Source: an uncultured bacterium (GTDB lineage: Bacteria > Acidobacteriota > Thermoanaerobaculia > Thermoanaerobaculales > Thermoanaerobaculaceae). Taken from it: DNA of 38,091 bases. Below, in pieces: positions 11,643 through 16,569 of this stretch. Where the stretch lies: assembly GCA_937924755.1 (NCBI GenBank), contig CALEVZ010000006.1, positions 1 through 38,091 of the forward strand. The letters are read 5' to 3'. Within the stretch, counting starts at the first letter, position 1. The number at the start of each line of letters is the position of its first letter. The position numbers were made by a program, and so were the translations under genes. The notes beneath the pieces are model-generated. The model saw only the letters and a list, made by a program, of their open reading frames with translations. It made no database searches and was not told the origin of the DNA.

Positions 11643-11876
11643 CCGCACGGATCGACGGTCGCGACCGGACGACGGAATGCGGCCGAGATGGGCGGGGTCT
11701 TCACCGCGCTTCAGCCGCGGCCCTTGGCGATGGCCCGGAGTCAGGGGTGCCGGTGCCCTGCGGCGTCAGGGCTCGAGCGTCCTCAGGTGGGGACGTTGGC
11801 GTGGGCGTGTCTGATGGCAAAGTCGTGGCGTGAGCTGGCACGAAGCGTGCTTGGGCCTGGTGCGGGAGGTGAGGCG

Positions 11877-12788
11877 ATGACAAGGACCATGGGCGTGATT
11901 GTCATGATCGTCGCTCTGGCGGGAATCGGCGAGGGGAGGGAGCTGACCTCGGCCTACGCCATCCCAGCTGCCGCCAATACGCCGGGCAGAAACGGGACGG
12001 ACTGGCACACCGACCTGACCCTATATAACCCCCAACAGCACCCCTTGCCGGTGGTGCTGCACTTCCTCCCGTCGGGCCAGAGCAACACCGGGCAGGTGCC
12101 CACGGTCAGCTTCGAGATCCTGCCTTGGGAAACCCTCAACCTGTGGGATGTGCTGGGACCGAAAGGGTTCAACGCCCGCGGCAAGACCGGCGCGCTGCTC
12201 GTCTATGCCGACGACCAGCGGATCAGCTGCACCGGCACCAGGTGCGATTTCGCCGCCTTCTCCCGTACCTACACCTTGGATCCCAAGGGGGGCCGGGGGG
12301 AGTTTGGCCAGGCGTTCCCGGGGGTGGCTGCACACCTCGGGCTGGACCGCTCGGTGATCGGCTACCTGCCCCAGCTCACCCACAACGCCGATTTCCGCAC
12401 CAATCTGGGAGTTGCGTCCTGGACGCCGGCATGGGTCACTGTCCGGGTGGAGCTCCAGGACACCAAGGGGACGATCATCCATCGCAAGGACCACCTCGTG
12501 CCGCCCTTCGGGCACATCCAGTGGTCGTTGGATCGGACGGTGGTGGGCGGCACTGCGGCGGTGTTCATCGTCGAAGGACCGGCCGATTCCATGGTTTACC
12601 CCTACGCCTCGGTGGTGAACAACGTGTACGGTGACGCGGTCACCGTGGAGGGCCAGTACTCCACCGTGGGACTGTCGGCGCAGGCGGCGAGCACCGACCG
12701 CACCCCGGCGGCACGGGCGCGGCCCCTCACCGCTTTGGCGACCGATTTCTCCATCGAGGCGTTTCGTGCTCTTCACGTCCGTGACTGA
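11877..12788 (+). CDS. Secreted protein with two similar beta-rich modules
   Basis: The start at 11877 is set by GGGAGGTGAGG just upstream and a short signal peptide (residues 1-20, with GVIVMIVALAGIG as the core). The mature protein seems to hold two related modules. One begins near AIPAAANTPG with TDWHTDLTLYNPQQ and ends with GALLVYADDQR. The other begins near GYLPQLTHNA with ADFRTNLGVASWTP and ends with AAVFIVEGPAD. Each would be a beta-sandwich of about 110 residues. Similar secreted proteins occur in Acidobacteriota as far as I recall, without an assigned role. One cysteine pair (SCTGTRCD) in the first module might form a disulfide. No catalytic motif is seen. The codons upstream to 11688 stay open but look non-coding. 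Confidence 0.65.
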   Translation: MTRTMGVIVMIVALAGIGEGRELTSAYAIPAAANTPGRNGTDWHTDLTLYNPQQHPLPVVLHFLPSGQSNTGQVPTVSFEILPWETLNLWDVLGPKGFNARGKTGALLVYADDQRISCTGTRCDFAAFSRTYTLDPKGGRGEFGQAFPGVAAHLGLDRSVIGYLPQLTHNADFRTNLGVASWTPAWVTVRVELQDTKGTIIHRKDHLVPPFGHIQWSLDRTVVGGTAAVFIVEGPADSMVYPYASVVNNVYGDAVTVEGQYSTVGLSAQAASTDRTPAARARPLTALATDFSIEAFRALHVRD

Positions 12789-12837: not shown

Positions 12838-13998
12838 GTGACCGAGGCACGGGATCAGGCCAACTCTCCCCACGTGATCGTCGTCGGGTCAGACAAGAAC
12901 TGGCGCGAGGCGCAGATCCGACGGGTTATCAAGGTCTTCGGCGATGTGCCGTTCACGAGTCTGGGGGATCTGGCGGCGGTGGAGTCCCACCTGGATCACC
13001 GGGGCGGCGAGGTGGTTCTGCTCGGCTGCGGGTTGTCGCCCGACGAGGTCCTGCGCCGGTTGAAGGAACTGCGGGCACGGTCCGAGTACGCGAGACCCTA
13101 CGTCCTCGTCTCCTGCCACCAGGTGGTGGAGGAGGCTCTCGTCAAGGTGATGGTGGAGGGGGCGGACGATTTCCTGCTGGAATCCTGCGCCGACGAGGAG
13201 TTCGCCGCCCGCCTGCGGGTCGCCTGGGAGCGGGCCCGCAGTACGCCGCGGGTCGCCGCGCGGGCGGCGGAGCTGGAGGAGCTGTCTGCCCGCCAGAGCG
13301 ACTTCCTATCAGTGGTGTCCCACGAGATTCGCACGCCGCTGGCGGCCATTCTCTCGGCCGCCAACATCCTGGTGCGGTATGGGAGTCAGCGGCCGGAGTC
13401 GGTGGAGCGCTTCGGCCGGGTGATCCAGGAGGAGGGGCGACGGCTCACGCGGCTGATCAACAACCTGCTGGATCTCTCCAAGATCGAGGCCGGCCAGGTG
13501 GAGTGGGACGCCCGTGAGGTGCCGATCGCCGAGCTCGTCTCGCAGGTGGAGGAAGCCTTTACCGCCCTGGCGGACGAGCGACAGCTGCGGCTGGAGGTGA
13601 CGGTCGAAAAAGGTGTTGGGCCGATCATCGCCGACCGCGACAAGCTCATGCAGGTGCTGATTAACCTCATCTCCAACGCGGTCAAGCACTCACCCGACGG
13701 CGGCGGGGTGTACTTGCGCTGCCGCCCCACGGCCGATGGCGGAGTTCGGCTGGAGGTCGAAGATGAGGGCCCCGGCATCCCGCCGGGAGCCGAGGAGCGG
13801 ATCTTTCAACGCTTTCAGCAGCTCGACCTGGAGGATCGCAACCGCGGCACCGGCCTCGGCTTGACCATTTCCCGCCAGATCGTGGCGCGGCATCAAGGGC
13901 GCATCTGGGCCGAGCCAGGACGCCAGCGAGGCGCCTTGTTCATCATCGAGCTCCCTGCGGACGGCCTCACGCGGAGCGGGCATGGTCCAGTTCGATAA
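12838..13998 (+). CDS. Sensor histidine kinase with a degenerate receiver domain
   Basis: The first 125 residues have the length and strand pattern of a response-regulator receiver domain, but the key residues are missing. The usual acidic pair is replaced by VVGSDKN, the phospho-acceptor position reads LLGCGLSP (Gly63), and the late Lys-Pro is absent. A DHp domain follows with the phosphorylated His162 in SVVSHEIRTP. The ATPase domain holds LINLISNAVKHSPDGG (N box), DEGPGIPPG (G1), FQRFQQL (F box) and GTGLGLTISRQIV (G2). No membrane segment is seen, so it is a soluble kinase. It starts with GTG right after a -10 element and overlaps the MglA-kinase fusion by 17 bases, so it is the first gene of a three-gene signalling operon. 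Confidence 0.88.
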   Translation: MTEARDQANSPHVIVVGSDKNWREAQIRRVIKVFGDVPFTSLGDLAAVESHLDHRGGEVVLLGCGLSPDEVLRRLKELRARSEYARPYVLVSCHQVVEEALVKVMVEGADDFLLESCADEEFAARLRVAWERARSTPRVAARAAELEELSARQSDFLSVVSHEIRTPLAAILSAANILVRYGSQRPESVERFGRVIQEEGRRLTRLINNLLDLSKIEAGQVEWDAREVPIAELVSQVEEAFTALADERQLRLEVTVEKGVGPIIADRDKLMQVLINLISNAVKHSPDGGGVYLRCRPTADGGVRLEVEDEGPGIPPGAEERIFQRFQQLDLEDRNRGTGLGLTISRQIVARHQGRIWAEPGRQRGALFIIELPADGLTRSGHGPVR

Positions 13999-16165
13999 CC
14001 AGTACAAGCAGGTCAAGCTCAAGATCGTCTACTACGGCCCCGCTCTGGGCGGCAAGACGACGAGCTTGCAGTACATCCATCGCGTCACCGATCCGCAGCG
14101 CCGCACCAAACTGTACGCCCTCAACACGGCATCCGACCGCACCCTCTTTTTTGATTTGCTCGGCGTGGACCTGGGTCGTATCCGCGGCTACCGGCTCACG
14201 CTGCAGCTGTACACCGTTCCCGGACAGGTGCAGTACAACGCCACGCGCCGGGCCGTCTTGGCGGGCGCGGATGGGGTGGTCTTCGTCGCCGATTCCCGGC
14301 GCGATCAGCTCGAGGCCAACAGAGAAAGCCTCGCCAACTTGCGAGAAAACTTGTTGGCCAACAGCCTCGACCTCGAGACGTTGCCGCTGGTGCTGCAGTA
14401 CAACAAGCGGGACATGCCCGACGCCATGCCCCGCGCCGAACTGGAGGCGGCGCTGAACCGCCGCGGGTTGCCGGCCTTCGACACGGTCGCCACCTCGGGC
14501 GAGGGGATCATCGAGGCGTTCGCCGCCGTCACCGAGGCCACGGTGCGCACCGTGGCCCAGCGCCTGGGCATTGCCAGCCAGCCGGAGGCGGTCCGGCGCC
14601 TGATCGACAACGTCCGGACGGCCATGGATCCACTCCTGCCGCGGCGGCGGGGAGAGGCGGTGGAAGCTCCGACGGTGCTCCGGCCCACCTCGGCGTCGCC
14701 GGCGCTGGCCGGGGACGAGCTGGTGGCCGAGGCGGTGCGCGCCAACGTGGCCATGACCGACCTCAACGCCCAGCTGGATCGGCTCAGTCAGGAACTGACT
14801 CGACGCGTCTCGCAGCTGCGCGCCATCGCCGAGTTCACCCGCGCCGTCACTTTCACCAGCGCCCCGGAAGAGGTAACGAGGGGATTTCTGGAGCGGCTAC
14901 TGGCCGAGCTGGGCGCGCCCTGTGGATCCTTGCAGCTAATCGGCGAGGGTGGCGCGCCGGTGGAGGTGCAGCGCCGCGGCTTGGCCGAGGACCCTCTCCT
15001 GCGCGCCAGCGGGGAGGGCAGCCCGGCCCGGGTGGTCACCACCACCCGGCAGCCCTGGGCCGTGCACCTGCCGGATGTGGAGCCCTCCCAGTTGCTGGCG
15101 TCCCCGTGGCTGGAGGAGATCGCTGCGCTGGAACTAGAAAGCGCGCTGATGGTGCCGTTGCTCGCCCACGATCAGCTACTGGGGCTGGCGACTGCCTACG
15201 CCGGCTCGCTTCGGCCGCCCTTCTCGGAGGAGGAGCTCGACCTGGCCAGCATCTTTGCCGGGGTGGCCGCCACCGCCCTGGACGGCGCGCGGTCGTGGCA
15301 GCAGCTGGAGGATCTCAACCGCTCCCTGGAGCAGCGGGTGGCGGAGCGCACTCGCGAGCTGGCGCAGGCACTGGAGCGCCAACGCGCCCTCGCCGACGAG
15401 CTGGAGGTGCGCAACGCCCAGCTGGAGCAGGCGAATCGTCAGCTCAGCGAGCTGGAACGATTGAAGAGCGAACTGCTGCAGCGGGTGGCCCACGAGCTTA
15501 ACACACCGGTCACGTCAATTCAGACGGCGGCGCGCATTCTTTCCAAGTACAGCGAGTTACCGGCTGACAAGGCGGCCAAGTTCGTGGCCATCATCCAGCA
15601 GGACGCCGCCCGTCTGGCGGGCCTGATCGCTTCAGCGCTGGAGGCGGCGGTGTTGGGCGTGGCCGGCACACCGGTCGATGCGGGCACGGTGTCGGTTTCG
15701 GAGCTCTTCAAGGGGGTGCTGGCGCCGTTTCGCGGCGAGATCGCCGAGAAGGGGATCACCCTGCAGGTGAAGGTGGCCGCCGGGCTGTCGGAGCTCAGGG
15801 CCGATGCCAGCCAGCTGGAGGCAGCGCTGCGGGCCATCATCAAAAACGCCGTGGAGTTCAACCGCCCCAACGGGTCGATCACCATCACCGTTCGGCCGCT
15901 GCGGCGCGAGGCGCGCTCCTTCGTGGAGATGCGGATCGAGGATTCGGGCAACGGTATTCCAGCCGGGGACTTACCCTATGTGTGTGACCCCTTCTGGCAG
16001 GGCGGCAACCTGCTCACCAGCAAACCCCGCGGTCTGGGGTTGGGGCTCGCGGTGGCCCGCCGCGTCGCTCGCAACCACGGCGGAGATCTGGAGATCTCCT
16101 CGTCCGAGGGCTCCGGGACCACTGTCAGTCTGTTGATCGCTGCGCAGGGCCGGGGGGTCTCATGA
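13982..16165 (+). CDS. MglA-type GTPase fused to GAF and histidine kinase domains
   Basis: This 727-residue protein joins domains that are normally separate. Residues 1-195 form an MglA-like small GTPase: P-loop GPALGGKTTS (Lys25), the MglA-typical TVPGQ (78-82), VVFVADS, and NKRD (141-144) for guanine. After a linker, residues about 275-435 look like a GAF sensor domain. A long coiled coil (about 435-500) leads to a DHp domain with His504 in RVAHELNTP. The ATPase domain follows with IIKNAVEFNRPNGS, IEDSGNGIPAG and GLGLGLAVARRVARNHGG. All catalytic residues I can check are present. It overlaps the upstream kinase by 17 bases and the downstream response regulator by four. MglA controls cell polarity in gliding bacteria; here GTP state may control a kinase, which is inference. 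Confidence 0.9.
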   Translation: MVQFDNQYKQVKLKIVYYGPALGGKTTSLQYIHRVTDPQRRTKLYALNTASDRTLFFDLLGVDLGRIRGYRLTLQLYTVPGQVQYNATRRAVLAGADGVVFVADSRRDQLEANRESLANLRENLLANSLDLETLPLVLQYNKRDMPDAMPRAELEAALNRRGLPAFDTVATSGEGIIEAFAAVTEATVRTVAQRLGIASQPEAVRRLIDNVRTAMDPLLPRRRGEAVEAPTVLRPTSASPALAGDELVAEAVRANVAMTDLNAQLDRLSQELTRRVSQLRAIAEFTRAVTFTSAPEEVTRGFLERLLAELGAPCGSLQLIGEGGAPVEVQRRGLAEDPLLRASGEGSPARVVTTTRQPWAVHLPDVEPSQLLASPWLEEIAALELESALMVPLLAHDQLLGLATAYAGSLRPPFSEEELDLASIFAGVAATALDGARSWQQLEDLNRSLEQRVAERTRELAQALERQRALADELEVRNAQLEQANRQLSELERLKSELLQRVAHELNTPVTSIQTAARILSKYSELPADKAAKFVAIIQQDAARLAGLIASALEAAVLGVAGTPVDAGTVSVSELFKGVLAPFRGEIAEKGITLQVKVAAGLSELRADASQLEAALRAIIKNAVEFNRPNGSITITVRPLRREARSFVEMRIEDSGNGIPAGDLPYVCDPFWQGGNLLTSKPRGLGLGLAVARRVARNHGGDLEISSSEGSGTTVSLLIAAQGRGVS

Positions 16166-16569
16166 CCGCCGCAGGCGGGCACGAGGCCCCGCAGGCCGAC
16201 GGCACCCTGGTGCTGGTGGCCGACGATGAGCCCAACATCCGCGAGACCATCTCGTTCATTCTGGAGATGGAGGGTTTTCGGGTGGTTCTTGCCGAGGACG
16301 GGGTGAGCACCTGGGAAAAGATCGTGGCGCTAAGGCCACAGGTGGTGTTGCTGGATGCCATGATGCCGCGGCTGGACGGGTTTTCCGTGTGCGGCCGGGT
16401 GCGCAGCGAGCCATCCCTGGCGGGCGTGCGCATCGTCATGGTGACCGCCCTCGGGCAGCGGGCCGACCGCGAGCGGGCGCTCGCCGCCGGAGCTGATCGC
16501 TACATCCCCAAGCCCTTCGACGAGGAGGAGCTGTTGCGTACCATCCACGAGCTGCTGGATTCCCGGTAG
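16162..16569 (+). CDS. Stand-alone response regulator (receiver domain only)
   Basis: A single receiver domain of 135 residues. The acidic pair is VADDEPNIRE (Asp21, Asp22), the phospho-acceptor is Asp65 in VVLLDAMMPRLDGF, the conserved Thr/Ser position is in VMVTALG, and the Lys is in YIPKPFDEEELL. No output domain is attached, so it should act by binding a protein partner, like CheY or DivK-type regulators. Its ATG overlaps the stop of the MglA-kinase fusion by four bases, so it is very likely the phosphoryl target of that kinase, the upstream kinase, or both. Confidence 0.92.
   Translation: MTAAGGHEAPQADGTLVLVADDEPNIRETISFILEMEGFRVVLAEDGVSTWEKIVALRPQVVLLDAMMPRLDGFSVCGRVRSEPSLAGVRIVMVTALGQRADRERALAAGADRYIPKPFDEEELLRTIHELLDSR

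Follow-up and report, generated by a model that had tools for sequence, protein, structure and literature searches.

Work on bacteria usually treats two-component signalling and Ras-like GTPase switching as separate subjects; the protein described here carries both on one chain. Its closest described GTPases are the MglA proteins of Myxococcus xanthus and Thermus thermophilus, known together with the GTPase-activating protein (GAP) MglB and with RomR/RomX. Known MglA proteins act in polarity or on type IV pili. In the actinobacterial conservons (AGPS), a sensor histidine kinase (CvnA) and an MglA-family GTPase (CvnD) are likewise linked, alongside the roadblock protein CvnB and CvnC (PMC13343842, PMC4316618). 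A conservon consists of four or more separate proteins, including the roadblock protein and no receiver, encoded in a single operon (PMC13343842); some have a GAF input (CvnF; PMC13343842, PMC4316618), and a 2014 survey proposed that the conservon GTPase is the output (PMC4316618). The same broad survey of prokaryotic Ras-like GTPases dropped MglA sequences of more than 240 amino acids (PMC4316618) and therefore could not list fusions of the present kind. In the part of the open-access literature that was searched, we found no description of an MglA–kinase fusion, a Geothrix MglA or a GTPase with a pseudo-kinase, in line with the initial annotation of this DNA, which knew of no characterised protein of the same architecture.

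An MglA-type GTPase and a sensor histidine kinase in one chain

We analysed a 38,091-nucleotide stretch of Acidobacteriota DNA (hereafter, the window), which is an entire contig (C6) of a 3.35-Mb genome in 86 contigs. Within it, one uninterrupted 727-residue frame, starting with ATG and ending with TGA, encodes an MglA-type Ras-like GTPase and a sensor histidine kinase in a single chain. The gene lies in an overlapping order of sensor kinase, fusion and single-domain response regulator, with the following features:

12838..13998, + strand: upstream sensor histidine kinase, 386 aa, with a degenerate receiver-like N terminus (Pfam HisKA and HATPase)
13982..16165, + strand: MglA–GAF–histidine kinase fusion, 727 aa (ORF, translation, Pfam, AlphaFold2 model; conservation in the order and phylum)
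13982..14566, + strand: MglA-type GTPase domain, aa 1–195 (phmmer against PDB; Foldseek; invariant residues in 103 relatives)
14711..14851, + strand: candidate coupling helix, aa 244–290 (helix predicted by AlphaFold2; conservation in relatives)
14864..15283, + strand: GAF domain, aa 295–434 (Pfam GAF_2; predicted fold)
15290..15463, + strand: coiled-coil helix running to the DHp, aa 437–494 (within the modelled helix 416–522)
15464..15658, + strand: DHp/HisKA, aa 495–559 (Pfam HisKA; model)
15491–15493, + strand: CAC codon of the phosphoacceptor His504 (sequence)
15683..16141, + strand: HATPase (catalytic ATP-binding) domain, aa 568–720 (Pfam; N622, D654, G656/G658, G684/G686/G688)
16162..16569, + strand: single-domain response regulator, 135 aa (Pfam Response_reg; DD, D and K residues intact)

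Pfam profiles matched the fusion for HATPase_c (2e-21), HisKA (2e-9), GAF_2 (6e-9) and Arf/Ras (1e-7), with HisKA and HATPase_c above the cut-off. The top PDB sequence match of residues 8–188 was M. xanthus MglA (phmmer, E = 1.5e-55), and this part carries the motifs of a GTP switch (G1 GGKTT with K25 and T26; R53; G3 TVPGQ at 78–82; G4 NKRD at 141–144); binding and hydrolysis of GTP are predicted. The C-terminal part has the features of a HisKA-type sensor histidine kinase: HisKA and HATPase_c domains, His504 and the N, G1 and G2 boxes (Asn622; Asp654, Gly656 and Gly658; G684-x-G686-x-G688). An AlphaFold2 model (mean pLDDT 81) shows MglA, GAF, DHp and CA as separate folds, in the order GTPase, helix 201–218, a disordered stretch at 223–242 (pLDDT <50) that parts the MglA domain from the remainder, helix 244–290 and GAF 295–434; helix 416–522 then continues into the DHp, of which 528–559 is the second helix. 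The pTM of this single-chain model is 0.40, at which relative domain placement is unreliable and contact between the GTPase and helix 244–290 is not readable. Foldseek matched the N terminus to the MglA structures 5ymx and 6hjo (TMt 0.89–0.94) and the C terminus to HK853, DivL and YycG (TMt about 0.7–0.78). The architecture read from the letters by the initial annotation (a complete MglA, a GAF-like domain, a coiled coil and a kinase core in one 727-residue frame) is thus confirmed by ORF, Pfam, PDB match, AlphaFold2 and Foldseek, with Lys25, TVPGQ, NKRD and His504 where it had placed them and the N, G1 and G2 boxes present; the structural modelling that it had suggested yielded separate domain folds. 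A cytoplasmic one-chain signalling protein is the best explanation of the gene product.

The upstream kinase ORF overlaps the start of the fusion by 17 bases, and the response regulator ORF overlaps its stop by 4 bases (ATGA). In the window, the receiver-like N terminus of the upstream kinase lacks the acidic residues of a receiver; among relatives, these residues range from intact to degenerate. This kinase is syntenic in the family of the window and is missing beside the fusions of G001 (a genome of the same family) and of the sister family f2. Downstream of the operon are a RimK-like ATP-grasp gene, a 23S rRNA methyltransferase-type gene, rimP, nusA and infB. On its 5′ side, an uncharacterised gene with no Pfam match (11688–12788) occupies the same place in most relatives examined. 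The host genome also encodes several PilT-family motors, and a pilus or polarity target of the fusion is possible.

As the initial annotation had stated, the window has no MglB (roadblock) gene: a Robl_LC7 profile search found none on C6. It found three elsewhere in the genome, on C30, C45 and C37, and that on C30 is an MglB gene adjoining a stand-alone canonical MglA, which answers the earlier suggestion to look for MglB homologues in the same genome. Of the other two roadblock ORFs, L034 (G000 C45) and L035 (G000 C37), one lies near biotin carboxyl-carrier/carboxylase-like genes and the other adjoins an ftsY-like gene. Two other long MglA proteins of the genome, L002 (G000 C37) and L004 (G000 C85; about 456 and 559 aa), have long low-complexity tails and no kinase. 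None of about 100 fusions examined adjoins an MglB-like ORF, compared with 12 stand-alone mglA loci that do; an adjacent MglB was therefore dropped as the cognate GAP. A tree of MglA domains places the fused ones outside a supported (starred) 29-member clade containing M. xanthus MglA and the stand-alone acidobacterial MglA proteins. Since the genome also has a canonical MglA beside MglB, the fused GTPase is, by sequence, a paralogue outside the canonical MglA clade.

Distribution and conservation in Acidobacteriota

The fusion is phylum-wide in Acidobacteriota. Among 37 genomes of the order, 33 have it as a single ORF, full-length or clearly related (two of these matches span only about residues 1–275, one being cut at a contig edge and the other a shorter, 558-aa fusion), and synteny in the order is conserved from a comF-like gene and the uncharacterised upstream gene through to the RimK-like gene. 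A sample of 159 genomes from across the phylum yielded 57 with a match to the fusion profile at E ≤ 1e-95; most or all of its 728 positions are covered in about 40 of these matches, and only the MglA part or a shorter stretch in the others. Named relatives are nearly all from Acidobacteriota, the nearest being Thermoanaerobaculales and Holophagae MAGs, and they include single-contig genomes and cultured Geothrix, with full-length forms in other classes. In the Geothrix relatives, PAS replaces GAF and a receiver is fused at the C terminus; three of them (L099, L091 and L078, 8001 onward) are MglA–PAS–kinase–receiver proteins about 800 aa long whose G2 box is degenerate. On a Myxococcota contig (L060:8001-10067), two separate adjacent genes, 15 bases apart, encode an MglA of 219 aa and a histidine kinase of 463 aa. 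A viral origin was rejected, as no viral_contigs entry encodes a relative, and so was a plasmid origin, the sole plasmid match being a Deinococcus MglA-like protein over 24% of the query.

The comparison covered 103 related fusions in which a kinase part can be recognised. All 103 share twelve identical GTPase residues (G19, K25, T26, R53, T54, T78, P80, G81, Q82, N141, K142 and D144). The position of His504 is His in 59 and Asn, Ser, Thr, Arg, Leu or others in the remaining 44; it is His in the window and in 14 other sampled members of its family. The kinase part also changes faster than the GTPase, even among fusions that keep the His. The ATP-site residues N622, D654, G656, G684, G686 and G688 are invariant in the His-bearing members of the window's family and intact in all 12 His-less relatives of its order, which speaks for ATP binding being used without phosphotransfer. 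G001 has lost its His along with both the receiver and the upstream kinase; its GTPase is the closest in the tree to that of the window, at 78% identity. Retention of the GTPase motifs in the 44 fusions without His suggests that the GTPase is the conserved function and that phosphotransfer is optional, and these losses rule out a phosphorelay fixed across the lineage. The earlier proposal that the fusion ties a GTP switch to phosphorelay output is accordingly plausible within the window's family, given the intact kinase core and the adjacent kinase and receiver, and does not extend to the protein family as a whole. Among Vicinamibacteria-type MglA proteins (L066, L068, L084, L090, L097 and L104; 503–545 aa), the C terminus aligns with histidine kinases, the ATP-site residues are gone and the His is mostly Arg or Gln; MglA and the coupling helix are intact.

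Retention of the His was compared with the presence of a receiver partner. As such we counted a receiver that is fused to the chain or encoded on the same strand within 2 kb; a more distant partner would escape this definition. For the 101 fusions scored (two were left unscored, and a neighbouring receiver without Asp, at L088, was counted as no receiver), 52 have both, 36 neither, 7 only the His and 6 only the receiver. Among the 58 fusions with a receiver partner, 52 keep the His; of the 43 that have none, 36 have lost it. Loci fetched later, when the sample was widened, gave 17, 10, 4 and 1, respectively. Fisher's test, which ignores kinship, gives 3e-14. The tree requires at least 11 changes of the His and at least 10 of the receiver; across 8 independent pairs, about 5 change in the same direction, none in the opposite direction and the others show no difference (sign test, median p = 0.0625, range 0.03–0.5), and in an earlier, smaller set about 4 of 5 independent pairs agree with none opposite. 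Thirteen of the 101 break the rule, including a clade in which the fused receiver is intact and Asn stands where His would be. The association is consistent and, once kinship is removed, suggestive of a link between His retention and a receiver partner. In two separate lineages, and in differing gene orders, a gene for a GAF–SpoIIE (PP2C-type) phosphatase clusters with the fusion and receiver (L121:9658-11172 and L058:6002-7393; also L042, L043, L125, L126, L226, L054, L208, L214, L218 and L219); a partner-switch output through this phosphatase is possible.

Outside the GTPase and the ATP site, the best-kept part of the fusion is helix 244–290, with the motif LxxEAVRANxxMTDLNxxLD in the window. 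It is nearly invariant in alignments A1 and A2, with A251 in 97 and N255 in 82 of the 103 relatives. Between GTPase and sensor, a helix whose motif resembles LxxxA(V/I/L)xxN is present in nearly all relatives, whether GAF, PAS or no sensor domain comes next, and the two long MglA proteins on C37 and C85 lack it. The helix is a natural candidate for coupling the GTPase to the sensor.

Proposed mechanism and alternatives

Our preferred reading, which we hold with about even confidence, is that the GAF/kinase module is allosterically coupled to the MglA-type GTPase, with the GTPase as the conserved output and the phosphorelay as an optional second output that is still intact in the window. Dimerisation of the kinase module would pair two GTPase domains; GAF ligand and ATP state would shift the coiled coil and the coupling helix, and the shifted helices might then alter how the GTPase exchanges or hydrolyses nucleotide or how accessible it is to effectors. 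Like other MglA proteins, the GTPase would, as the conserved output, probably act on type IV pili or on polarity. The kinase is probably live too in the window's lineage and, together with the one encoded upstream, may phosphorylate the small receiver, making the protein a node with two outputs. Where a lineage lost the receiver, the His would have gone too and the GTPase stayed, in the window's order together with the ATP site. The direction of coupling between the GTPase and kinase parts is one that we infer. The overlapping order of kinase, fusion and receiver genes and the Myxococcota pair of separate MglA and kinase genes also favour the coupled reading; the 13 exceptions to the rule and the faster change of the kinase part even where the His is kept weigh against it. 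A bolder version, which we find doubtful, is that a kinase-shaped module, often without phosphotransfer, could regulate a Ras-like GTPase in cis, as an exchange factor or in the manner of a GAP, in a phylum-wide class of receptors whose main output would be GTP state rather than phosphate.

The roles could also be reversed: the GTP or GDP state of the GTPase, set in trans by MglB-like GAPs, may gate autophosphorylation of the fused kinase, with the small receiver as output. Conservation of the GTPase by itself cannot separate an input from an output role, and the window's family has an intact kinase core in a tight operon with an intact upstream kinase and receiver, as this arrangement would have it. 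The tendency of receiver-bearing fusions to keep the His (52 of 58) also fits, and an MglB encoded elsewhere in the genome could act in trans. We nevertheless judge this reading unlikely, since 44 of 103 relatives retain the GTPase motifs without the His, G001 retains the GTPase without the entire relay, and no MglB-like gene adjoins any fusion examined.

An arrangement without allostery, in which two largely independent modules share one chain for co-localisation (MglA bringing the kinase to the cell pole, or the reverse), seems improbable. The disordered stretch between the MglA domain and the remainder would suit such a tether, as would the polarity functions of known MglA proteins and the PilT-family motors of the host; the helix that follows this stretch is conserved beyond what a plain tether needs.

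That assembly or annotation joined two genes, as the initial annotation had allowed for, is a negligible prospect: recurrence as a single ORF across the order and in other classes, among them cultured Geothrix and genomes assembled as a single contig, with a neighbourhood shared among relatives, indicates that the fusion is neither chance nor misassembly.

Comparison with known systems

The fused GTPase has in common with the MglA proteins of M. xanthus and T. thermophilus the GTPase fold, the G1–G4 motifs and the TVPGQ G3 with its Thr, and its Arg53 and Gln82 occupy the same positions as in M. xanthus MglA. Family members are single-domain proteins of 150–240 aa (PMC4316618), whereas this domain is part of a 727-aa sensor kinase, has no adjacent mglB and lies outside the M. 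xanthus MglA clade. Neighbourhoods of Group 1 Rup GTPases likewise place a small GTPase near a histidine kinase or other signalling output; these are separate genes, and the Rup G3 lacks the catalytic Gln that the fusion has as Q82 (PMC4316618).

Among the closest solved folds to the fusion is the pseudo-histidine kinase DivL of Caulobacter (4q20). DivL has an ATP-binding fold without a phosphoacceptor, like the His-less relatives in the window's order. It has no GTPase, whereas the window protein has one and keeps His504.

Conserved across a phylum, the fusion lets cross-talk between kinase conformation and GTP state be asked about directly. Its kinase part runs in a natural series from intact through His-less to fully degenerate beside an unchanged GTPase, which offers a set ready for comparison, and Geothrix species in culture carry the fusion. 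Unlike the conservons, it is one chain, with no adjacent roadblock gene (none on the contig) and, in the window's family, an adjacent receiver, and it falls outside the conservon definition; it nevertheless bears on those systems, in which little is understood of the route between kinase and GTPase.
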